From positions 2,232,001-2,296,000 of the forward strand of contig NZ_CP109994.1 in NCBI RefSeq assembly GCF_025947065.1: a stretch of DNA of 64,000 nt, in the 5' to 3' direction. The translations under genes were made by a program, and so were the position numbers. Source of the stretch: Flavobacterium sp. N1736. GTDB lineage: Bacteria > Bacteroidota > Bacteroidia > Flavobacteriales > Flavobacteriaceae. The number at the start of each line of letters is the position of its first letter. The stretch's first letter is position 1. Positions 9,447 to 43,815 of this stretch are shown in pieces. Under the pieces are notes generated by a model that worked only from the letters and a program-made list of their open reading frames with translations, was not told where the DNA came from and did no database searches.

Positions 9447-12400
9447 TTAAAAATCATTATCGTCAGGAATATATCCTTCGTTGTTATTATTTTGTTGCGG
9501 CTTAGGTTTCTCCTCGTCTTTTTTATCAGATTTCTTTTTATTCTTATCTGTTTCTTTTGAACTTGAGAAATTCAAATAATCCGGATTTACATAAGAATCC
9601 GGCAAATCATCAGGAGAACTTTTTAACGATCGTTCTAATTTATGGTTCTTAAATATCTTATTGACCAATTCACTAAAAGTATCAAAATCTACCTCATACG
9701 AAATACCAACTCCTTGTGTATAACCAATTCCCTGACCAACATAATTAATATCATTTTCTTTATTAAACAAACGAAGATTCATAGAACCATCTTCATTTAC
9801 TCTGTAAAGAATTTCAATATCTCCAACAATCGCAGATTCATTAACGCCTCCAACCGGAACTCCTAATTTTCCGTTTATGGATATTTTTTCATTAATTTGA
9901 GACGATATATTCGCCACAAACTGACCATCGGCTTCCTGACCAATTCGTTTGTCTGCAGATATAAAGTTCAGGTCAATATTAAACTTATCATTATCTGATT
10001 TAATGATTCCACCCAATAAACTGGCAGCAGTTTCAGCAAAAGTTCCAGATAAATCACTTTGATTAAATCCATCCGGACTCATAAACGAACCTGTCGACAG
10101 TAAATACAATGCCTGCGTTTGGCGCACATCTTTATCATCTAACTTATATTGTATTTCTGATTTTAAAACATTACTTACAGACGGAAACTGAATATCAAAA
10201 TTAGGCTCCGGGCTCGTTAAATCTCCTCTTAAACCAATTACAACTTCTACCGGTACTTTTTTATTAAAGGATGAATTATCCAGCAATACAGCAGGATTTG
10301 CAGATGTTCTGTAAACGGCTTCAAGATTCAACTGGGCTTTCATCGGGTTACCTTCCCAAATAATAGATCCGCCTTTTTTAACGGCGAATTTTTTATCGAT
10401 CAAACCTCCGTATTTAAAGTTATAAGTTCCTTCGTATGCCTGGAAATCTCCCCACATATTAAATTTACCCAATGTGTTGATTTTAAATAACAACGAACCA
10501 TATCCTTTTCCTTTCATACCGTGACCGGAATTTCGATCCAGAATTACTTCGACTTCCGCATCTGGCGTAATATCAAAATCAAACTCCAGTTCAAGTCCGT
10601 TATAATTTCGCGTTTTTTCAACAATACCATTTGCGAGATTGTATTTTTCTTTTGGCGTTACAAAATGTATCCAGCTGCTCTCCCCTACACTTTGCACATT
10701 ATTAATAGGTATCTTAACTTCCGTTCCTTTTTCAGATTTAGCATCTACCTTAATAAACAAACTTTCTGTTGGTCCTTTTATACTTGCTGTACCATTAATA
10801 AATGCAGTACCAAAATAAGCCGCATCATCGCTGTCTTTGGTATCAAGTGCCAATAATCGTTTCGTCGTTATGGTTAAATCGAGTTTCCAGTCGCCAAAAT
10901 TATGATGTTCAATACTTCCGTTCAGCAATCCTTTTGTGCCGTATTTCGTATCGGTTAACTGATTATTTCTAAACAAAAATTTCTCATCAGTTAAATCAAT
11001 AACCGTTCGATCGCTTAATTCATAATCTGTATTAAGGTACGGAATGGTCATTCCGGCTTTTTCGACATATAATCTACCGTTGATTTCCGGTTTTTTAAGA
11101 TTCCCCACAACCGCGGCATTTCCGGACACACTTCCTCGAACATTCGACAAAACGTCTCCGCCAACAGTTCCTAAAGTGGCTAAATTAAAGCCTTCAAGTT
11201 TTAGCTTTAAGTCCAGAATAGTTTCTTTATTTTCGATCGCAAAACTTCCGTTGGCACTAAACGATTCCGAAAAACCATTTTGTATCGATGAATTTATAGT
11301 AAATTTTCTCAGGCTTTCATCTCCCGAAATATCAAAATTTAAAGTACCTAATTCCGTTTTATTTAAGTTAAGATGGTCAATAACAATAGATGCCGTGGGT
11401 TGATAAACATCTTTATTCTGTTTAAAATTGACCTTTCCGTTCAAATTACCATTAAACACAAATTTTGAAGTTAACGGCGTAATTTTATTAATATCGACAT
11501 CTTCAAAATTCAGCACAATATCCTTATAATCCTTTCCTTTTATTTCTCCATTTAAATCAATTTTTTGATCTTCATGCGATAATACAATATTGTCTATATT
11601 AAAGTTTTTGAAATTTTTATCAAAAACAACCTGATTATCTGATGCATCTTCTTCGTTTAAATACCATAAATAATCCTTAAACTTCATCTCAGATTTTTTG
11701 ATACCAACAATATTATTTTTGTTTTTATCAATAGTATGATACAAGTTCATATTAAAATAATCATTCCCTTTTTCGCCACCTTTAAATTCTGAACGAACAA
11801 ACAAAGTATCTTTTGATGTTACATTAATCAAATTGAAATCACGAATTTTATAATAAGGCGTTTTGATACTATCTAACTCAATAAAAGCATTATAAAGCGG
11901 ATTTTTATTATCTATATTAATCCTGATATTATCAAACGTATTTTTTGCAGCAGTTATTTTTTGCGATTTAAACCTAAATTTAAATTCATTCAAATCAGCA
12001 TCAATTTTTCCACGAACCACAGTTGATGAATCAACATTGATTTCAGGATATAACATTTCGACCACTTTATCATAAACATGAAAGTTGAAACGTAAAAATT
12101 GTCCTTTTTTAACCTTATAAGGTTTGTAATTCGTATAAAGACTTCCTACTGAATTCATTACCAGTTTATCTAATTGAGCAAACTGAAATTTACCCACAAT
12201 TTTACCATTAACAATATCCGTAGAATTAATGGTTATGGTACGTAATTTATCAGCATCAAAACTAGAATTAACCGTTAAATCATCAAAAGCATAAGTCGAT
12301 TTTGGATTTTGATAAACCGCGTCTTTAATGTAAATATTTCCCTGTAGATTTTCGATCGAATTTCCGGTAACTTCAACAACCGCGTCTCCCTGAAAATGAG

Positions 12401-13937
12401 AAATGGAATCGTTTACGAACTTCAATTTTTTCAAATCAGCATTTTCAACATTAATATGAAAATCGTATTTACTTTCGCGCTTGCTTAAATCAACCAAACC
12501 ATCAAATGTTAAGGTCAAATTTGGATCGTTTATAGAAATTTGTCCTTTATAATAAGGCAGTTTAAAATTACCGTTAACCACAATATTATTATACGTGTAT
12601 TTATTATAATCCAGTTTTTCAATATCACCTTTTATAATCGTGTTTAGATATTTCTCTGTAAAACCAACACCGTCAACATCTAAATTTAAAGTTGTTTTAC
12701 CAATATCCTTTCGCTGCAGCAATGCTCCAACATCAAAATTATCCAAAATAATATTACCGGAGTAAGACGCTTTATCAATAAAATCCATATTGTTCAGGTG
12801 CAAATTTACCTGACCATTTCCTAAATCTGTAGCTATTTTAAAATCGCTTTCCAGCTCCGTTGTCGAAACTTTTGCTTTACCAACAATATTAAATTTACCA
12901 ATTCTCTGTAGTTCCTTCGGAAGTTTTTTCCCTAAAACAACAGGCAGTAAAACCACCAAATTATCATAGCTGGAAGTTAATCTGTCAAACTTTCCATCCA
13001 TGGAGAATTTCTGCTCTTTTGTACCTAAAAGATTTCTAAAATTAATGTTTCCTATAATTCGCGAACCGTTTGTATCAGTAAGTTTTAACCTTTTTAAATT
13101 TAAATTATTAAGCGTTCCTTTTAGTTTAGTTTTAAGCTTAAAATGCTGGTCTTTGCCCAATCCGTCATAAAAATAACGAATATCATTTGTGGCAATTGAC
13201 GCAGAATCGACCGCAACATCAAACTTCACTTTATCTGTAAATGCCAGGAAATCCCCAACTTTATAATTTAAAATTGCTTTACCATAAATCGATGATCTTT
13301 TGGTTTTTATGGCTAAATTTTCAAGCTTGATTTGTTTTTTAGTATAACTAAATTTCGCTGCCAGATTAGAAACATACAAACCGCGATGATCCTCAAATGA
13401 AAACCTGTGAATAGTCGTATTTACATCCGGTCCATATAATTTAAAATCGCTGATATAAGCATTCAGTTTTTTAAAATCAATAAGTTTTGGCGTTTTCTTG
13501 TTTTCATCAATTACCGAAAATGTTCCTTTTGAGATATAGGCATTTTTGGCTGTCAATAAAAAATGTTTATTGGTTTTAGAAGGTTTATCAGAATCGAATA
13601 AGCGAATAAATTTATTGATATTGTTTTCGTTTTCGCCTTTGTAGGTTTTCAAATTAAAAACCAAACCTGTTAAGCGAAGATCGCCAAAAATTAAATCGCC
13701 ATCAAGAAGCCTTTTTACACTTAAAATATCAGTACTGATAATATCTGAATAAATTAAAGTTTTTTTATGATGATCACGAATTAGTACGGTTTTAAGTTTA
13801 ACGCCGCCAAAAATATTAATGGCAACTTTATCTATCGTAATATCTGTTTTAAAATCGTTGTTGAGTGAGTCTGTAACATATTTGGCAATTTTTGTCTGAA
13901 CCACAGGCAAAGACAGTGTTATAGCCAATGCCAACAA
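9447..13937 (-). CDS. tamB: TamB-like translocation/assembly module protein (DUF490 C-terminus)
   Basis: This is a giant envelope protein of the AsmA/TamB lipid-bridge class, anchored in the inner membrane and spanning the periplasm. Almost all of its 1496 residues are predicted beta-strand repeats. The C-terminal DUF490/TamB domain is recognisable (FNMWGDFQAYEGTYNFKYGG, then KVPVEVVIGLRGDLTSPEP), and a low-complexity tail rich in Lys, Asp, Glu and Asn ends in YIPDDNDF. The TTG used here cuts the signal anchor. The same frame reads upstream through VKKIISRTLIGLILLLLAL but meets a stop at once, while a basic N-terminus lies in another frame up to 14091. Removing one A from the A6 run at 13983-13988 joins them. 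The true start is therefore unresolved. Confidence 0.8.
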   Translation of the reverse strand: MLALAITLSLPVVQTKIAKYVTDSLNNDFKTDITIDKVAINIFGGVKLKTVLIRDHHKKTLIYSDIISTDILSVKRLLDGDLIFGDLRLTGLVFNLKTYKGENENNINKFIRLFDSDKPSKTNKHFLLTAKNAYISKGTFSVIDENKKTPKLIDFKKLNAYISDFKLYGPDVNTTIHRFSFEDHRGLYVSNLAAKFSYTKKQIKLENLAIKTKRSSIYGKAILNYKVGDFLAFTDKVKFDVAVDSASIATNDIRYFYDGLGKDQHFKLKTKLKGTLNNLNLKRLKLTDTNGSRIIGNINFRNLLGTKEQKFSMDGKFDRLTSSYDNLVVLLPVVLGKKLPKELQRIGKFNIVGKAKVSTTELESDFKIATDLGNGQVNLHLNNMDFIDKASYSGNIILDNFDVGALLQRKDIGKTTLNLDVDGVGFTEKYLNTIIKGDIEKLDYNKYTYNNIVVNGNFKLPYYKGQISINDPNLTLTFDGLVDLSKRESKYDFHINVENADLKKLKFVNDSISHFQGDAVVEVTGNSIENLQGNIYIKDAVYQNPKSTYAFDDLTVNSSFDADKLRTITINSTDIVNGKIVGKFQFAQLDKLVMNSVGSLYTNYKPYKVKKGQFLRFNFHVYDKVVEMLYPEINVDSSTVVRGKIDADLNEFKFRFKSQKITAAKNTFDNIRINIDNKNPLYNAFIELDSIKTPYYKIRDFNLINVTSKDTLFVRSEFKGGEKGNDYFNMNLYHTIDKNKNNIVGIKKSEMKFKDYLWYLNEEDASDNQVVFDKNFKNFNIDNIVLSHEDQKIDLNGEIKGKDYKDIVLNFEDVDINKITPLTSKFVFNGNLNGKVNFKQNKDVYQPTASIVIDHLNLNKTELGTLNFDISGDESLRKFTINSSIQNGFSESFSANGSFAIENKETILDLKLKLEGFNLATLGTVGGDVLSNVRGSVSGNAAVVGNLKKPEINGRLYVEKAGMTIPYLNTDYELSDRTVIDLTDEKFLFRNNQLTDTKYGTKGLLNGSIEHHNFGDWKLDLTITTKRLLALDTKDSDDAAYFGTAFINGTASIKGPTESLFIKVDAKSEKGTEVKIPINNVQSVGESSWIHFVTPKEKYNLANGIVEKTRNYNGLELEFDFDITPDAEVEVILDRNSGHGMKGKGYGSLLFKINTLGKFNMWGDFQAYEGTYNFKYGGLIDKKFAVKKGGSIIWEGNPMKAQLNLEAVYRTSANPAVLLDNSSFNKKVPVEVVIGLRGDLTSPEPNFDIQFPSVSNVLKSEIQYKLDDKDVRQTQALYLLSTGSFMSPDGFNQSDLSGTFAETAASLLGGIIKSDNDKFNIDLNFISADKRIGQEADGQFVANISSQINEKISINGKLGVPVGGVNESAIVGDIEILYRVNEDGSMNLRLFNKENDINYVGQGIGYTQGVGISYEVDFDTFSELVNKIFKNHKLERSLKSSPDDLPDSYVNPDYLNFSSSKETDKNKKKSDKKDEEKPKPQQNNNNEGYIPDDNDF

Positions 13938-29679: not shown

Positions 29680-32600
29680 ATGAAAAAATCTGCTTCATTA
29701 CCGCCTGTGCTTACAGACGAAGAATTGCTTACCAAAACACAAAAATACACCTTTAAGTACTTTTGGGATTATGCATCGAGTTCAGGAATGGCATACGAAC
29801 GTATTCCTGTTGAAGGAGCAGCCGGAAATACTGTTACTTCCGGCGGTTCCGGATTTGGAGTAATGGCTATTTTAGTTGGTATCGAAAGAGGTTTTATTAC
29901 CAGAGAAGAAGGACGCCAGCGAATGGAGAAAATTGTTGATTTCCTGACTAACTCCGCAACAAATTACAAAGGTGCTTTTGCCCATTGGATGAATGGAAAT
30001 ACCGGCGAAACCATTCCGTTTAGTACAGATGATAATGGCGCCGATCTGGTCGAAACATCATTTATGATACAAGGTTTGCTTACGGCACGTCAGTATTTTA
30101 ATCAGCCCATTTTAACCGAACAGGATTTAGTTGTTAAAATCAATATCCTTTGGAACAATGTCGACTGGAACTTTTTTACATTTGGATCAGACAGGCTTTA
30201 CTGGCATTGTAATAATGAGTTGCAGAATGTGCTTAAATTGCAGATTATCGGCTGGAACGAATGTATGATTACGTATCTGTTAGCTATTGCTTCACCAACT
30301 CACCCCATCGCTCCCGGTTTATGGCAAAGCGGTTGGTCATCAGGCAGTACCTATAAAACCAAAAATCAAAAGTTTTATGATATAACGCTTCCTGTTGGCA
30401 GAGGAAGTGCAAAAGGCGGCCCATTATTTTTCTCTCATTATTCATTTCTCGGGTTTAACCCAAAAAATTTGCGGGATAGTTATAATGACGTAAATTATTT
30501 TCAGCAAAATCAGGCTCATACCTTGATAAACAGAGCGTATTGTCAGGAAAATCCGTTGGAATATAAAGGATATGGCGAGAATAAAGCCTGGGGACTAACG
30601 GCTTCTGATGGTCCTGTAAGTTACAGCGCACATTCACCCGGAAACGACAAAGGTGTCATTGCGCCAACGGCAGCTATTTCTGCAATGCCTTATACTCCCA
30701 AAGAATCATTAGCTGCCCTGAGGTATTTTCATGATCAGTTGGGAGCTAAAACATGGAACGAAAAAGCCGGATTTTTAGACTCTTTCAGTGAAACAGTCAA
30801 TTGGAGCGATGCCAGTTATTTGGCAATCGATCAGGGTCCGATTATTTGTATGATAGAAAATTACCGTTCCGGTTTGCTTTGGGATTATTTTATGTCGGCT
30901 CCAGAAATTCAGACAGCATTAGGCAAACTGCAATTTAAACCGGATTATTATCCGCGTCTCATAATCAGAGAACCGCTTGTATTAGATAATTTTGAAAACG
31001 GACAAATCAACTTTACAAATAAAATAAATATCAATCCGGCAGGCGCTACGGAAATTACTGTGGTAAATAATCCAGACAAAACCGGATCAAACCAAAGTAA
31101 TAAAGTCCTGAAATTTAAACGACTTGACAATGCCATTAAATGGGCAGGATTTTTTTGTACGCTAAAAGAACCCCTTACCGAGTATAAGTATTTGTACATG
31201 AAGTATTATCGCAATAATCCAAACTCTCAGATCAGAGTTAATATTGGAACTGAATTCCTGCCTCAAAGTCCACTGGATAAAGTAAACGAATGGGGAGTTG
31301 CCGTATTTGATTTATTGACGAATAAGGTAAAAGATATCAGCAGTTTTGGTATTCAGCCTGATTTTACTGATAATCGTGCCGTTGGAGATATTGTTTATAT
31401 CGATGAGTTAACTTTTAGCGATACAGAAATTGATATTAATCCTTTTTATAATAACAATCCTAAAGAACTCAAAGCTACTAATATACAAGCCAATTCTGTT
31501 TCTTTATCGTGGGATGTACTTCCGGGAATAACTTCATTTGACGTTTTTCAAGAAGGTGTTTTTCATCAAAATGTTACCTCCAATTTTATCACTATACATA
31601 ACCTGAATTCATTTGATATTTACTATTTCTCAGTAAGAGGCCGCGATGACAATCTGAACCTTTTTACTAAAATGAGCAATAGTCTTTATATAACAACAGA
31701 AGAAACAAAAACACATAAAGATCTACGGATGGCGTGGTGGCGTGAAGCGGGTTTCGGGCTATTTCTGCATTGGGGCGCTTACTCCGGACTGGCAGGACAT
31801 TATACAGGACCAACTTTAATAAAATCCGGTCCCGGCATTGGACCAGATTACTGGATGCAGGATTATTACTCTGCTTATCGTCCGGAATGGATTAATCCTG
31901 ACGGAACTATTAAAATTGATCCCGCGACAGGAGAACCTTACGCGCGCGGTCAATATGCAGAATGGATTATGTTTGCAGCCCAGATTCCGCGAAGCGAATA
32001 CAAAACGCGCTGGCAGCAAAATTTTACGGCGCAAAACTTCAATGCTTCCGAATGGGTAAGAATGGCAAAAGATGCCGGCATGAAATATATTGTCGTTACC
32101 GCCAAACATCACGAAGGTTTTGCTTTGATACACACCCATCACGTTGGATATAATATTCAGGATGATACCAATATTTCGGCAGATATTTTGAAAAATTTGG
32201 TAATTGAAGCACATGCGGCAGGATTAAAAATTGGATTTTATTATTCGCAATGTCTCGATTGGATGAATCCGGGAGGAATGGGCTGGATACCTCAAAATAC
32301 AACACCCAGTCATGAAGCTTCTTATGATGAAAAAGCACAATATACTGATACGATTGTTGTACCTCACATTCAAACCATGATTAATGATTACGATATTGAT
32401 TTGCTTTGGTGGGATATGGGTGAAGGCAGTACACCTGAATTTCGTTACAGAATGATGAAAGCAATTAAAAACATTCCCGGATCTGAACGTTTGATATTCA
32501 ATAACCGAATGGAAGATGGTTTGACCGGAGATTATTTTACCCCGGAACAAAACATTCCAAGTATGCCACCAAACGGAAACGGAACAGATTGGGAAACTTG

Positions 32601-33948
32601 CATGACCATGAATGATAATTGGGGATATGATGCTTATGATCCGCGCTGGAAAACCGAGAAAGATTTAATTCAAAAGTTAATTGATATTATCAGTAAAGGA
32701 GGTAATTTCCTGCTCAATATAGGTCCTGAAGGAGACGGAACATTTCCGCATGAAGCCGTAAACAGACTGGATGGTTTTGCAGCCTGGATGGCTATAAATA
32801 AAATGGCTATAGAAAAAGCACAGCCAAGTCCTTACACCAAACAATTATCCTGGGGACGGGCGACCCGCAAAATTACAGACGGAATACAATATCTCTATCT
32901 GCATATATTTACTGATAACTGGCCTACGGACGAAAATTTACTTGTTCCCGATTTGCCCGAAGGAAGTATTGTAAAATCGTATTTCCTTGCCGATACTACC
33001 AAAACAGCATTAAATATAACCCCAAATGACAAGGCTTCGGGATATATTATTCCTGTTCCTGCTGCTCCGCTGGATAGTATAAGTACAACTATTGTTTTAG
33101 AAATGTCAGGTATTGTCGATATTCTTATCAGTTTTGTTAAACAATACAAAGATGGTACACTTAATTTAAATGCGGTCGATGCCACTACAACCGGATTGAG
33201 TATTGAAAACGGACCACTTTATAATCTCGGTTCATGGACTGATGATACTAAATTTGCAACCTGGCATGTTGAAGTTATTCAACCCGGAAATTTCGTTTTG
33301 GATGTTATTGTATCCGGGTATTCAGGACAATTTGTACTAAAAGTAAACCAAGCAGATCAGGGACCGTATCCCTTCACAACAGCAACAACTGATTTTAATA
33401 ACTATCAGACTTTATCCATCGGAATGCTTAATTTACCTGTTGGAATTTATAATATAGAGCTGCATCGTATCTCAAATGGAGGCTGGAATCCTGTAAATGT
33501 GCGTCAAGTTTCAATTCATGTTCCCATAGATACCACTCCTATTATCAATCAAAATGCAGACAGAATGCTTATTCTTCCTGCTCAAAGCGCAATATTACAC
33601 GGAAGTGGTATCAAGATAGAAAACGCACCCAATTATAATATTGGCGGATGGACAAATGCAGCTTCTTATGTAGCATGGAGAGTCAAAATAAATGTGGCAG
33701 GCATCTACCATTTGCAAAGTGAGCTCGCGGGTTATTCAGGTAAATTCCAACTAAAAATAAACGATAGTTTAAGTATTATTTATCCGTTTACTACAACTAA
33801 TAATAATTTTACAAACTATCAAATCAAACAATTGGGTAATGTTTATCTGGAAGAAGGAATTTATTATATTGAATTACACCGTATTTCTAACGGAGCATGG
33901 GATCCCGTAAATGTTCGTAATATTACCTTTTATCAGGATCTGCTATAA
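29680..33948 (+). CDS. GH144-FN3-GH29-CBM multidomain glycoside hydrolase, no signal peptide
   Basis: The protein has 1422 residues. Domain 1 (about 10-430) is a Glycoamylase/GH144-type all-alpha barrel (GGSGFGVMAILVGIERGFIT, PHP-like SPTHPI, GGPLFFSHYSFLGF, YLAIDQGPIICMIENYRSG). A beta domain (about 440-590) and an FN3-like domain (about 595-675) follow. Domain 2 (about 680-1090) is a GH29 alpha-L-fucosidase-type barrel with nucleophile-like Asp912 in LLWWDMGEG. Two copies of a 130-residue CBM-like module end the protein, each ending in IELHRISNG then NPVNVR or DPVNVR. The N-terminus MKKSASLPPVLTDEE is not a signal peptide, and an in-frame stop lies three codons upstream, so the protein is cytosolic or the gene lost its leader. 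Confidence 0.85.
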   Translation: MKKSASLPPVLTDEELLTKTQKYTFKYFWDYASSSGMAYERIPVEGAAGNTVTSGGSGFGVMAILVGIERGFITREEGRQRMEKIVDFLTNSATNYKGAFAHWMNGNTGETIPFSTDDNGADLVETSFMIQGLLTARQYFNQPILTEQDLVVKINILWNNVDWNFFTFGSDRLYWHCNNELQNVLKLQIIGWNECMITYLLAIASPTHPIAPGLWQSGWSSGSTYKTKNQKFYDITLPVGRGSAKGGPLFFSHYSFLGFNPKNLRDSYNDVNYFQQNQAHTLINRAYCQENPLEYKGYGENKAWGLTASDGPVSYSAHSPGNDKGVIAPTAAISAMPYTPKESLAALRYFHDQLGAKTWNEKAGFLDSFSETVNWSDASYLAIDQGPIICMIENYRSGLLWDYFMSAPEIQTALGKLQFKPDYYPRLIIREPLVLDNFENGQINFTNKININPAGATEITVVNNPDKTGSNQSNKVLKFKRLDNAIKWAGFFCTLKEPLTEYKYLYMKYYRNNPNSQIRVNIGTEFLPQSPLDKVNEWGVAVFDLLTNKVKDISSFGIQPDFTDNRAVGDIVYIDELTFSDTEIDINPFYNNNPKELKATNIQANSVSLSWDVLPGITSFDVFQEGVFHQNVTSNFITIHNLNSFDIYYFSVRGRDDNLNLFTKMSNSLYITTEETKTHKDLRMAWWREAGFGLFLHWGAYSGLAGHYTGPTLIKSGPGIGPDYWMQDYYSAYRPEWINPDGTIKIDPATGEPYARGQYAEWIMFAAQIPRSEYKTRWQQNFTAQNFNASEWVRMAKDAGMKYIVVTAKHHEGFALIHTHHVGYNIQDDTNISADILKNLVIEAHAAGLKIGFYYSQCLDWMNPGGMGWIPQNTTPSHEASYDEKAQYTDTIVVPHIQTMINDYDIDLLWWDMGEGSTPEFRYRMMKAIKNIPGSERLIFNNRMEDGLTGDYFTPEQNIPSMPPNGNGTDWETCMTMNDNWGYDAYDPRWKTEKDLIQKLIDIISKGGNFLLNIGPEGDGTFPHEAVNRLDGFAAWMAINKMAIEKAQPSPYTKQLSWGRATRKITDGIQYLYLHIFTDNWPTDENLLVPDLPEGSIVKSYFLADTTKTALNITPNDKASGYIIPVPAAPLDSISTTIVLEMSGIVDILISFVKQYKDGTLNLNAVDATTTGLSIENGPLYNLGSWTDDTKFATWHVEVIQPGNFVLDVIVSGYSGQFVLKVNQADQGPYPFTTATTDFNNYQTLSIGMLNLPVGIYNIELHRISNGGWNPVNVRQVSIHVPIDTTPIINQNADRMLILPAQSAILHGSGIKIENAPNYNIGGWTNAASYVAWRVKINVAGIYHLQSELAGYSGKFQLKINDSLSIIYPFTTTNNNFTNYQIKQLGNVYLEEGIYYIELHRISNGAWDPVNVRNITFYQDLL

Positions 33949-39110: not shown

Positions 39111-39887
39111 TTAATAAACCGCTTTTGCAGCCGCTATAATCTTTCCTGTACTGTTGTTTTGTATAAAACCTATAATTTCCCAGTGCTCAGCATCAAAACC
39201 CAGAGGTTTTAAAAGCGTGACAAATCCTTCTTTTTTGTTTAAAATAGCAACAAAGGTTTGTCTGACAGTCTGCGCATGATGAAGCAAATTCCCTGCATTT
39301 TCACCTTTTTTTACCTCTGTGTAAGTATCTTTCTGAATCAACGCAACCAGCAAATTGCTGTCTTTGTACTCTTTCTGCACCTTAAAATCCACCTTTATAA
39401 GGCTGTCTTGAGAACGACTTCGCAGCATTAGAGGATCAGACACATTGTGCATGGTTCTGGAAACAGTTCTGTAAAGCGTTCTTTGATCACTTCCTGCAAA
39501 TTCTGACTGTCCATTAACGATAAACTGTGGCGTATAAAGAATTTGAAGATTCATCCATTCCGCATATTGTTGCTGGCGCGCTGAAAATTTTTGTGAGCTA
39601 AATCGGTCTGCCCATCCAAGATTGTTCCAGTAATCAACATGAAAAGCCAAAAAGTAAATTTGTTTATTGCCGGATTCTGCACGCATTTTGTCTATGAGAT
39701 CTTCAGCAGCCGGACAGCTCGAACAGCCTTCCGAAGTAAAAAGTTCAACCACTGCAAATCCGTTTGTTGGAGCAGATTCCAGATAAGATTTGCCAAGCCA
39801 GTTTCTTCCCGGGAACATAAAATAATAACCCGCTACTATTGACAGTATTATGAAAACTGTCCAGGTTCTTTTATCTCTGTTTTTCAT
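39111..39887 (-). CDS. DUF1223 thioredoxin-fold protein, membrane-anchored
   Basis: There are 258 residues from the ATG at 39887; a longer reading adds 17 residues that lie in the structured leader. It has an N-terminal membrane anchor (WTVFIILSIVAGYYFMF), then a thioredoxin-like domain with a C-x-x-C pair: Cys55 and Cys58 in TSEGCSSCPA. PQFIVNGQSEFAGSD matches the cis-Pro region of the family. A redox or metal-related envelope role is plausible but unproven. Confidence 0.85.
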   Translation of the reverse strand: MKNRDKRTWTVFIILSIVAGYYFMFPGRNWLGKSYLESAPTNGFAVVELFTSEGCSSCPAAEDLIDKMRAESGNKQIYFLAFHVDYWNNLGWADRFSSQKFSARQQQYAEWMNLQILYTPQFIVNGQSEFAGSDQRTLYRTVSRTMHNVSDPLMLRSRSQDSLIKVDFKVQKEYKDSNLLVALIQKDTYTEVKKGENAGNLLHHAQTVRQTFVAILNKKEGFVTLLKPLGFDAEHWEIIGFIQNNSTGKIIAAAKAVY

Positions 39888-39913
39888 ATCATTTCTCTTT
39901 TTAAATACTTCTA

Positions 39914-39950
39914 AAATCAGAGTTGCTACATTATGCAAGTACTCTGATTT
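39914..39950 (-). promoter_or_regulatory. Structured leader hairpin of DUF1223 gene
   Basis: AAATCAGAGT and ACTCTGATTT are perfect 10-base arms around a 17-base loop that holds a second short pairing (TGC/GCA). The element lies between the -7 box and the start codon, so it is in the 5' leader. It could be an operator or an RNA switch; it matches no riboswitch I know. Confidence 0.5.
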
Positions 39951-40128: not shown

Positions 40129-43100
40129 TCAATATTTAAAATTAAGACCAATAAAAAGAATATTTCCCTCAGCTGAATTGAAATATGCAGCCTGTAAACT
40201 AAGCGTATTCAGTCCGCCAAACCAAATTCCGCCACCTTGCGAAGTATGCCATTTTCTTGAAGGATCATCTTCGATCCATACACGGCCGAAATCGAAACCG
40301 CCATAAATACCAAAATCAACAGGAAGAAGCCCAGTTTTAAAACTCGTGATTTTCAGGATAAGATTAGAACTGTCGTACAAACTGCTTTTTCCGCTAAAAC
40401 GCTCATTGCGATAACCACGTAATCCATGATTTCCTCCGAGAGACGAAGCGTGATAAAAATTATAATTATCCCCAAAAATAACCCTTCCCTCTACAGTTGT
40501 TTGAAATACCAAATTTCCTGAACTGACTAATTTGTCCGTCAGTCCTAATTTTGCCAGAATATATCCAAAATTATTATCGCTGTTTGCCGTATTAAATTTC
40601 CATCCCGCTTTTGTTTCCGCATACAATCCCTGAGTTGGAAAATCTTCTGCATCCCTGTTTTTATAAAGCAACGATGCTTCTGCGCCTAAATAATTCTGAT
40701 GTTCAAAAACCGACGGCGCAAAATTGGTGCTGTTAAAATAGCGGTCGTCCATTTCTTCAATTTCATACGATTCAAAAAGCCCTTTTATTTTAAATTTACG
40801 ATATTCCAATCCCGCACTTAGATTGGTCTGACGGGTTCGGGCACGATTGTAATCTTTCCCCAAAGTCTGATCTTCGTTGATGGTTTCATTTCCATATCCA
40901 AAAAAATTGTTCGAGAATTTCGCGCCTGAAAAATAAGCTTCTGCCACAAAATTAATATTAGGGAATATATTGAAAAAAGTACCGCTGTAACCTGCTTCTG
41001 CAGATTGATACATAAAATAATAATTAGCAAAAAGCTGGTGAATCTGTTTGTGCGGATTTCCATTGAAATCATTATAAGTATATTTATCTTTCAAACCCAG
41101 AAATAATCCGTCATCAGTCACAAACCCTATCACGGGAAGCAAGACATTATTACTCGGGATAAAATATCTGAAATGCAGATTATTAGTTTCATACAAAGAT
41201 GACAATTGTTTTTTTGAAGGTTTATCATCATCTATAATCTGCTGCTCATAATCGTAATCATAAATGCGCGCTTTTTTATTGTTGTGAATCTTATAATGAT
41301 CCGTTCCATAACCACCAATCATTCTTATAAGATTTTCCTGCTCACCATCTCCATCCACGATAAATTCATCATCTCCATTAAGTCCGTAAAGCCAGACTTC
41401 ACAAGATTGGTGCGAATTAATCGTTGCTGTATAATAGGGCATATTGCTATTTTCTTCCGTAGAAATAGTTATGGTAGTATTCCCTTCCGTTTGTCTGCTT
41501 ATATGAAAAATATCTTTTTTGTCCGTTCCATGAATCACAACTTTATTACTGATAAAATGGGCATATTCCTGAGCAATTTTATCCAGATTTTTTAATCTGT
41601 TTTTTAATTTAGTTTTGATGACTTCTAAATCCTGATCCTGCAGTTCTACAGGCAGTTTCAAAAAGGCACGATCTATGGTTTCACTGGAGAGACTTTGCTG
41701 AATCGAGCGCGCTTCATCTATCCAAACCGCTTCATCATAAGGAGAAATAAATAGTTTATCAAGATTATAAGCTTCAGAATTGAACCATTTTACATCTTTT
41801 AAATCATCATCATACGTCTGCCAAAAACGGGTTTCGGGAAGAATCCTTTTTATCGAACTAAAAGCTATTCCGCCAAATTTTGAAAAAGAAGCGTCTCTGT
41901 CACGCGGAATCGGAGCATAAATCCCTCCTTTACTTCCATTTTCATGAAGTGCCCAGCGCCATTGATCTTCGTGGCGATCCCAGTCGCCTATTAGCATATC
42001 AAAAATTCTGGATCGAATATACTGGCGTTTGTCAATTGTATATTTATCACTTTTACGCAGGTTTTCTATTACTTCCGTTGTACCCGTAAAATCAGTTATG
42101 GGTCCTTTGCTTTCTGCAGATGCATATTGATATCCTTTAAAATTTTTCTGTTCTTTTGACGCCCTTTCCTCAATATAATAAAGACCGTCCCCATATTTTT
42201 CATTCAGGTTTCCAAATCCCTGCTGTTTGGGAAAATAATATAATTTGATATTAGAATGATTGATTTGTGCTGCATCTGCTATATCGCTCACGGCAAGCTG
42301 TGCATAAGGATGTGCCGTTGTAAAAAAGTCCGAAACCAGTTCTTCGGCAGCCGTATCTTCATAAGCTTCAGGATCAAAAGCCAGACCTTTTAACTTAAAA
42401 CGCAAAAATTTCACGGCGTCTTTCCGCAACGAGCGCATTACATATTGCCTGCCGTCTTTACCTACTACTCGTAAGGATTGTGACTGATGACCGCCGCCTT
42501 CCTTCACAATAGTAAGACCACCGTAAAGCGTGTCCAGCAACGCTGTTTTTACCGTTACAGGTTTAGAATAGGCTTTGCGGTAATGTTCGCCCCATAAAAG
42601 CCGGTAGAACCCTGATTTTGATGTTTCTTCATTCGTTAAAATCTGTGCCTGAACTACATCGGGAAATACTGTTTTCTCGTGCGTAGTCAGCGGTTTTTCA
42701 ATTATCGGAAGCGGTTTAGTCAGTTCATGTCTGTACAATAATTTATCCTGATTGAAACTATGAAATTCAACCGCAGAAGAACCATCCTCATAATAATTAA
42801 GTTTCGCATATCCGTATTCACTGCTCGTAAAAACGCCCTGATAATTTAATTTCCCTCCAACGGCGGTTATCGTTCCCTTTGCTAACTTTGTTGCTTCACT
42901 TTCAGAAAGTGATCCGCTGATGATCTGATGGATTTTACCTCCTTCCAAATATTGCAGATTGCCTTCGTGCGCCGAGACAATCGTAATATGATCTGAAAGT
43001 TTGGCAAGAGCCGTTACAAACGAAGTGAGTTCCCTGTATCTGCTATACGCCACGTCCTGCGGATTGGTCCCGCCCAGTTTTCGAACTGCTTTATCAACAG

Positions 43101-43815
43101 AACCTGCAATTGGCAAAGGTTTCATATAGTCATTAAAACTGTATTTTCCGCCATGTTTTCCATTGCTAAATAAGGGATGATGCATGGCGATAATAATATT
43201 TTTGAATTCCGCATCACGAATCATTCCCTCTAATTCTTCCAGAAAACGTCTTCTGGTTTTAATGTCCGGAGAATATTCATTGATATATTTTATTTTATCC
43301 CAATCTGAAATATACCACTGCGAATCAATAAAAATAATTTCGAGATTATCCCCTAAAGATACACTGCTTAAAGGTCCGCCTTTTTTAGGAAGAAATATTT
43401 TGGCGTCACCCGTCTGCTCCATAAGGAAATCCTGTATCGCATTGTTTTTGCGGTTGTCCCGATATTTCCATTCATTTTCTCCCGGAATAAAATAAGTTTT
43501 CCGCTGGTATTCTTTCACAGCTGCAACCTGTTCCTTTAAGATTGTTTTATCGGCAATACTATCGGCAGAAGCAGAAACATTGTCTCCTAAAAATAAAACA
43601 GAAGTATTCTCGGGTGCTTTTTTTATGATATCGCTCAACTCCTGAAGATGACCATTTCCTGTACTCTTTTCTCCAAAACCTCCGGCAAGATAAACGGTAT
43701 TCGTGATTTTTTGCCCGGAGGCGGCGGTGCTTTCTTCCTGATGCTGCTCTTTGAAGGTAGCACATGCCATTAACAGCAATAAACTGCAGAATAATGAAAG
43801 GGTCGTTTTTTTCAT
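40129..43815 (-). CDS. Tripartite lipoprotein: degenerate phosphoesterase, kinase-like middle, Omp85-type barrel
   Basis: The protein has 1228 residues and a lipobox LMAC with Cys18. Residues about 35-350 have a calcineurin-like phosphoesterase outline, but the ligand motifs are broken: no D-x-H at YLAGGFGE, GENEW (111-115) for GNHDW, SAHEGNLQ (280-287) for GHEHNLQ; GDN (76-78) and MHHP (210-213) remain. Residues about 430-700 contain DMLIGDWDRHED (605-616) and PRDRDASFSKF (636-646), with YVMRSLRK (457-464) and EDTAAEELVSDFF upstream, resembling FAM20/HipA kinases. The last 380 residues are an Omp85/BamA-like barrel with GLRGYRNERFSG. Barrel plus lipid anchor implies outer membrane. Function unknown. 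Confidence 0.82.
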   Translation of the reverse strand: MKKTTLSLFCSLLLLMACATFKEQHQEESTAASGQKITNTVYLAGGFGEKSTGNGHLQELSDIIKKAPENTSVLFLGDNVSASADSIADKTILKEQVAAVKEYQRKTYFIPGENEWKYRDNRKNNAIQDFLMEQTGDAKIFLPKKGGPLSSVSLGDNLEIIFIDSQWYISDWDKIKYINEYSPDIKTRRRFLEELEGMIRDAEFKNIIIAMHHPLFSNGKHGGKYSFNDYMKPLPIAGSVDKAVRKLGGTNPQDVAYSRYRELTSFVTALAKLSDHITIVSAHEGNLQYLEGGKIHQIISGSLSESEATKLAKGTITAVGGKLNYQGVFTSSEYGYAKLNYYEDGSSAVEFHSFNQDKLLYRHELTKPLPIIEKPLTTHEKTVFPDVVQAQILTNEETSKSGFYRLLWGEHYRKAYSKPVTVKTALLDTLYGGLTIVKEGGGHQSQSLRVVGKDGRQYVMRSLRKDAVKFLRFKLKGLAFDPEAYEDTAAEELVSDFFTTAHPYAQLAVSDIADAAQINHSNIKLYYFPKQQGFGNLNEKYGDGLYYIEERASKEQKNFKGYQYASAESKGPITDFTGTTEVIENLRKSDKYTIDKRQYIRSRIFDMLIGDWDRHEDQWRWALHENGSKGGIYAPIPRDRDASFSKFGGIAFSSIKRILPETRFWQTYDDDLKDVKWFNSEAYNLDKLFISPYDEAVWIDEARSIQQSLSSETIDRAFLKLPVELQDQDLEVIKTKLKNRLKNLDKIAQEYAHFISNKVVIHGTDKKDIFHISRQTEGNTTITISTEENSNMPYYTATINSHQSCEVWLYGLNGDDEFIVDGDGEQENLIRMIGGYGTDHYKIHNNKKARIYDYDYEQQIIDDDKPSKKQLSSLYETNNLHFRYFIPSNNVLLPVIGFVTDDGLFLGLKDKYTYNDFNGNPHKQIHQLFANYYFMYQSAEAGYSGTFFNIFPNINFVAEAYFSGAKFSNNFFGYGNETINEDQTLGKDYNRARTRQTNLSAGLEYRKFKIKGLFESYEIEEMDDRYFNSTNFAPSVFEHQNYLGAEASLLYKNRDAEDFPTQGLYAETKAGWKFNTANSDNNFGYILAKLGLTDKLVSSGNLVFQTTVEGRVIFGDNYNFYHASSLGGNHGLRGYRNERFSGKSSLYDSSNLILKITSFKTGLLPVDFGIYGGFDFGRVWIEDDPSRKWHTSQGGGIWFGGLNTLSLQAAYFNSAEGNILFIGLNFKY

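Follow-up and report, generated by a model that had tools for sequence, protein, structure and literature searches.

Some subfamilies of the Omp85 superfamily lack POTRA domains (Heinz and Lithgow 2014, PMC4104836). Among the non-POTRA architectures the same survey describes a 'Metallo' subfamily, in which a PF00149 domain, there termed a metalloprotease, precedes the barrel; the word 'kinase' is absent from its text. In the patatin-Omp85 protein PlpD, the enzyme domain is reported as periplasmic. In this study, we analysed a window of 64,000 nucleotides from Flavobacterium sp. N1736 (contig NZ_CP109994.1, positions 2,232,001 to 2,296,000), which carries on its minus strand an open reading frame (ORF; 40129-43815, ATG start) encoding a protein of 1228 amino acids, in the following called the query. 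The query resembles the 'Metallo' subfamily in having a PF00149-type domain before an Omp85 barrel, but differs by a kinase-fold domain in between and by a phosphoesterase site that is dead in its branch. As in PlpD, enzyme-type sequence precedes the barrel; PlpD has a POTRA and a patatin domain, whereas the query has no recognised POTRA and two other domains.

How bacteria phosphorylate targets beyond the cytoplasm is little understood. From its sequence, the query had been read as an outer-membrane kinase-like protein next to a pseudo-phosphatase, and the predicted fold, conserved residues, ligand loss and barrel described below support this interpretation. The further suggestion of a new type of envelope system needs to be narrowed. 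The combination of phosphoesterase and Omp85 barrel has been known since 2014; for its kinase-fold domain, the Pfam and NCBIfam copies used gave nothing credible. The query is also no isolated case, but one member of a family that spans the phylum and occurs in several architectures. In the literature covered, with subscription papers largely outside its scope and with the accessible parts of PMC10281475, PMC7948968 and PMC9758233 included, no barrel-tethered kinase of this kind was found described. The last of these, the 2022 Legionella pan-kinome study, shows a FAM20/CotH group, with no mention of the query's family by name in that part of it. A family present in 111 of 296 sampled genomes has a kinase domain without a match in the two collections.

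The middle domain and known kinase families

The structure model predicts with high confidence a two-lobed core in the middle domain, as had been anticipated, and this core matches solved kinases. By this model, the domain has an atypical kinase fold of the PKL superfamily. The proposed FAM20/HipA-like character holds as far as the kinase fold is concerned; 'FAM20-like' is not specific, because VIA-align places CotH, PI4KII and CtkA nearest (tied, Z within 1), followed by HipA and only then Fam20. CotH (PF08757) matched neither the query (up to E 1) nor, with E up to 1e-3, anything else of its genome, and the query domain differs from CotH kinases in that a phosphatase-like domain and a barrel are fused to it. 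Type II phosphatidylinositol 4-kinases are 8-10% identical to the query over the aligned parts, and the query has no match to PF00454 (PI3/PI4 kinase) by Pfam score. The same is true of PF07804, the family of HipA and CtkA; HipA is cytoplasmic, whereas the query is exported. The secretory kinase Fam20C (PF06702), not the nearest fold, gave no query match and was found in 1 of 198 genomes, below the Pfam cut-off.

In the profile comparison, the DRH and the two-Asp motif lie in register with CotH. The phosphatase alignment in this comparison is no control, as it extends into the kinase domain. Three further searches yielded no usable candidate. A sequence search of the Protein Data Bank (PDB) returned no kinase, only two chance matches to viral capsids; a PDB profile search returned no kinase either, only two weak matches (E 0.14-0.15) of the phosphatase part to purple acid phosphatase; and the PADLOC candidate models PDC-M03A matched weakly over the catalytic motif (E 7e-4 for the query, 2e-4 for the lone form described below) and were not used as evidence.

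Kinase folds such as SelO and SidJ are capable of other chemistry. Instead of ordinary phosphorylation from ATP, the domain might likewise, for example, transfer AMP, catalyse glutamylation, or use a donor such as polyphosphate to phosphorylate a glycan or the head group of a lipid. This would suit the tie between a protein kinase (CotH), a lipid kinase (PI4KII) and CtkA, and also the neighbours of part of the no-phosphatase branch, namely polyphosphate kinase, a His_Phos_1 histidine phosphatase, PAP2, a Porin_O_P protein and a CotH gene. Given the DRH and two-Asp motifs in register with CotH, and nothing that points directly to other chemistry, we regard it as doubtful.

Conservation of kinase-type residues

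The motifs DMLIGDWDRHED and PRDRDASFSKF, on which the sequence-only reading had relied, are present at residues 606-617 and 637-647, one position later than first numbered; its Asp612, Asp638/640 and Lys464 correspond to D613, D639/D641 and K465. Conservation was assessed in 93 middle-domain sequences, including the query as well as phosphoesterase-less and barrel-less forms. D606, D611, R603, P503, G649, P722 and R740 are each found in 93/93, D496 in 91, K465, D639 and D641 in 90 each, D613 and H615 in 87 each. At the level of sequence, a chance origin of the motif pair is excluded by this conservation. Free replacement of the DRH and second-Asp motifs in homologues was looked for and not seen; the motifs held across the alignments. 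The query thereby presents candidates for the conserved lysine (K465, the beta-3 lysine proposed before), the catalytic-type Asp (D613) and the metal-type Asp (D639, D641) of the PKL superfamily. The Glu assigned to helix C, E491, exists but is not the best-kept acid of that region: it is found in 52 of the 93 sequences, and in a larger alignment, built differently, in 352/416 as compared to 410/416 for D496, five residues on. Conservation of E491 thus varies with alignment and branch.

Dead and intact phosphatase domains

The N-terminal domain has the metallophosphoesterase/purple acid phosphatase (PF00149) fold. Its description as calcineurin-like with lost ligands stands for both loss and fold, and is refined here to a site of the purple-acid-phosphatase type. 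In the query, Asp is replaced by G46, Tyr by S81, Asn-His by E113-N114 and His by G285, with D78, H213 and H283 kept; we take these positions to be the metal ligands of such a site. The query retains 3/8 of the dimetal ligands, compared with 8/8 in 57 relatives, and has no Pfam match to PF00149. The proteins counted comprise 117 with a dead site, 57 with an intact site and 18 without phosphatase. A quick tree, made without bootstrap, contains three dead-phosphatase branches, one of them (L080) with an odd letter make-up. The only further member in the query's genome (G000:C1:2601651-2605313), 39% identical and about 330 kb away, has an intact site and matches PF00149 with 43.7 bits (cut-off 21.5). 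Intact and dead branches together in one genome offer a natural experiment on the division of labour between kinase and phosphatase.

With the full model, Foldseek matches GAP50 best. GAP50 is related to purple acid phosphatase and anchored in the membrane, and is not known to be an enzyme; from the purple-acid-phosphatase ligand set the query differs at 5/8 positions. This match, the loss of most phosphatase ligands in the query's branch and the additional loss of kinase residues in some divergent relatives would fit a mere scaffold in which neither half does chemistry, the pseudo-phosphatase and the pseudokinase only binding ligands or partners. Such a scaffold seems unlikely to us, since the kinase residues are intact in 116 of the 117 proteins with a decayed phosphatase site, an asymmetry it explains poorly.

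Barrel, linker and topology

A BamA/TamA-like barrel with GLRGYR had been proposed for the C-terminus, and we count 16 long strands there, the motif falling between the eleventh and the twelfth. A 16-strand barrel with an RGY-type loop-6 motif is characteristic of the Omp85 superfamily; the NCBIfam model Omp85_fam matches with 60.4 bits (E 2e-16), below its cut-off of 200. No Pfam or NCBIfam POTRA model matched in a search with the whole query, the linker alone not being searched. Glycine/aspartate repeats in the linker (GLNGDDEF, GGYGTDHY; 41152-41547) are reminiscent of calcium-binding RTX repeats, and counts of RTX-like motifs differ by branch (85/117 dead, 9/57 intact, 2/18 no-phosphatase). 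The query is a putative lipoprotein, judging from MAC-ATF and a Cys column kept in at least 90% of 74 close rows. A count of lipoboxes by regular expression (79/117 dead, 27/57 intact, 3/18 no-phosphatase) is too crude to be used and by itself lends no support to this assignment.

A surface or periplasmic location had been left open. By analogy with PlpD, the periplasm is favoured and the surface less likely. That the barrel exports the N-terminal, enzyme-type part onto the cell surface, which would make the query an ectokinase, is one of two options put forward for phosphoesterase-Omp85 proteins (Heinz and Lithgow 2014, PMC4104836). By analogy, we consider it improbable: PlpD, the model for such export, is itself reported with a periplasmic enzyme domain, and lone kinase forms (L052-L056) begin in 5/5 cases with a hydrophobic segment resembling a membrane anchor.

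Family spread and architectures

A search with residues 380-800 scored 7995 proteins, of which at least 4784 matched with E up to 1e-3, a lower bound because scoring was limited to candidates sharing most words. The figure of 111/296 genomes refers to matches to residues 380-1109 in a phylum sample; the whole protein matched in 22 of 40 nearer relatives. Among the family proteins analysed, 177 of 183 are distinct and 6 are present twice.

Four architectures occur: phosphatase, kinase, linker and barrel (about 1205-1340 amino acids), kinase and barrel (about 850-950), kinase with further sequence (about 500-570), and kinase alone behind an N-terminal hydrophobic segment (about 423). The no-phosphatase form found 2664 proteins among 7996 scored; the few named entries among the 120 matches listed are Ignavibacteria and one 'Bacteroidota bacterium'. 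The lone form (L052-L056, P0121-P0240) is conserved, has no Pfam match and found 816 proteins among 5629 candidates, the named ones among the matches listed being mostly from Flavobacteriaceae genera. One National Center for Biotechnology Information (NCBI) record of it (P0188) bears the name 'HipA domain-containing protein'. Its small size makes it convenient for biochemistry. Members also occur side by side: three adjoining kinase-plus-further-sequence genes in L058:126-5151, two neighbouring kinase-barrel genes in L065:3020-8529, and three neighbouring members in L113:5878-15577, the last running to the locus end.

Gene neighbourhood

Neighbours were clustered over 172 loci, and the counts are from loci of at least 8 kb (72 intact-form, 26 dead-form, 16 no-phosphatase, 11 lone). 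Many loci come from related genomes, and the counts are not independent; the locus labels A/B derive from a regular expression, and single loci may be misplaced. Two neighbours recur. An HD-PycTM gene (Pfam HD plus PF18967) is found in 58/72 intact, 14/26 dead and 6/16 no-phosphatase loci, and a beta-propeller (SdiA-regulated-like; two groups matching each other at 98.5% probability) in 48/72, 3/26 and 7/16, respectively. In the same order, polyphosphate kinase is found in 3/72, 0/26 and 5/16, His_Phos_1 (which we take to be SixA-like) in 1/72, 1/26 and 5/16, PAP2 in 3/72, 0/26 and 4/16, and a CotH gene in 0/72, 0/26 and 3/16. L085 and L067 share the order CotH, Porin_O_P-like, propeller, kinase-barrel, polyphosphate kinase, SixA-like, HD-PycTM; L087 has CotH, Porin_O_P-like, SixA-like, HD-PycTM and PAP2, with no polyphosphate kinase within the stretch. 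With CotH near the kinase-barrel gene, each of these three clusters holds two different kinase-fold families, and in L085 and L067 the kinase-barrel gene adjoins polyphosphate kinase.

The paralog in the query's genome lies between genes for HD-PycTM and the propeller. That genome has a single match to the paralog's HD-PycTM, and two polyphosphate kinases elsewhere. HD-PycTM proteins (e.g. L002:231-1409 and its cluster) join the membrane domain of a Pycsar effector to an HD domain; as frequent neighbours of the query's family, they may not have a role in phage defence there.

Proposed function

We consider it somewhat more probable than its opposite that the query is an outer-membrane-anchored phosphotransferase-type enzyme, most likely facing the periplasm. 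The kinase would be the retained function and the phosphatase optional, which is the parsimonious account. Its kinase domain, with the CotH/PI4KII/HipA/Fam20 fold, would be held by barrel and N-terminal lipid on the periplasmic side of the outer membrane. There, the GGGHQS loop together with K465 and D639/D641 may bind a nucleotide or other phosphate donor, and D613 would direct transfer to an envelope substrate, which could be a protein, a glycan or the head group of a lipid. In the intact branch, one protein could both add and remove phosphate, because the purple-acid-phosphatase-type site shares a chain with the kinase domain; in the query's branch, the dead domain probably regulates the kinase by binding ligands or serving as a docking site. 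The family may act in a phosphate-linked envelope system with the HD-PycTM membrane protein and the exported propeller, with a polyphosphate kinase link in some lineages; the query is a paralog away from this cluster.

Several observations weigh against this assignment. Known kinases match with modest Foldseek TM-scores (0.29-0.42 by query length; 18 matches, E up to 1e-3), and a Pfam search of the query up to E 1 matched no kinase family. By profile comparison, CotH matches weakly (probability 6.5-7.2%) and HipA lies at background (14.5, 16.7). Divergent members (L064, L069, L090, L091) have lost several kinase residues, and Ser replaces D613 in one member each of L057 and L058; with such losses, some members may be pseudokinases. 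The linked neighbours occur in none of the 11 lone-form loci (0/11 for each), and none was found in the query's window. The control loci (55 loci, 208 kb, picked for CotH or HipA genes) contain none of these neighbours save CotH itself, a result informative for HD-PycTM and the propeller only, because at the family's per-kb rate 12.7 and 9.1 of these were expected, compared with 0.8-0.9 for polyphosphate kinase, SixA-like or PAP2. The weakest point of this account is the donor: we know of no ATP pool in the periplasm, so the phosphate source of a periplasmic kinase is in doubt.

More tentatively, and with clearly less confidence than in the phosphotransferase assignment itself, the family could form a phylum-wide Bacteroidota system of outer-membrane phosphorylation. 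Kinase and phosphatase on an Omp85-anchored chain would write and erase envelope phosphate, the phosphate source would be tied to polyphosphate metabolism and not to an ATP pool, and paralogs such as the query would keep the writer, with the eraser now a sensor.

Feature coordinates and further genes of the window

Table 1. Positions of the query gene and its parts in the window
Feature	Coordinates	Strand	Basis
Whole gene, 1228 codons plus stop	40129..43815	-	
Signal peptide and putative lipobox (LLMAC), residues 1-18	43762..43815	-	sequence; Cys column in alignment
Purple-acid-phosphatase-like domain, ~residues 36-370, 3/8 ligands kept	42706..43710	-	
Atypical kinase-fold domain, ~residues 400-756	41548..42618	-	conservation and predicted fold
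GGGHQS, candidate nucleotide-binding loop	42481..42498	-	
K465, candidate beta-3 lysine	42421..42423	-	alignments
D496, near-invariant acidic residue, helix-C region	42328..42330	-	alignments
Catalytic-loop motif DMLIGDWDRHED, residues 606-617, D613 as candidate catalytic Asp	41965..42000	-	alignments, profile comparison
PRDRD, residues 637-641, D639/D641 as candidate metal-binding Asp	41893..41907	-	alignments, profile comparison
Beta-rich linker, ~residues 757-888, glycine/aspartate repeats, no POTRA recognised	41152..41547	-	
Omp85-type 16-strand beta-barrel, ~residues 889-1228	40132..41151	-	
GLRGYR, loop-6 motif of Omp85 barrels	40408..40425	-	

The query's own neighbours are genes for a DUF1223 protein, a thiolase, an NlpC/P60 protein and a histidine kinase/LytTR pair. 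The DUF1223 gene (39111-39938) lies downstream of the query on the same strand, and its product has a weak thioredoxin-like match. Two very long ORFs are also present in the window, at 9447-13937 (1496 amino acids) and 29680-33948 (1422 amino acids).
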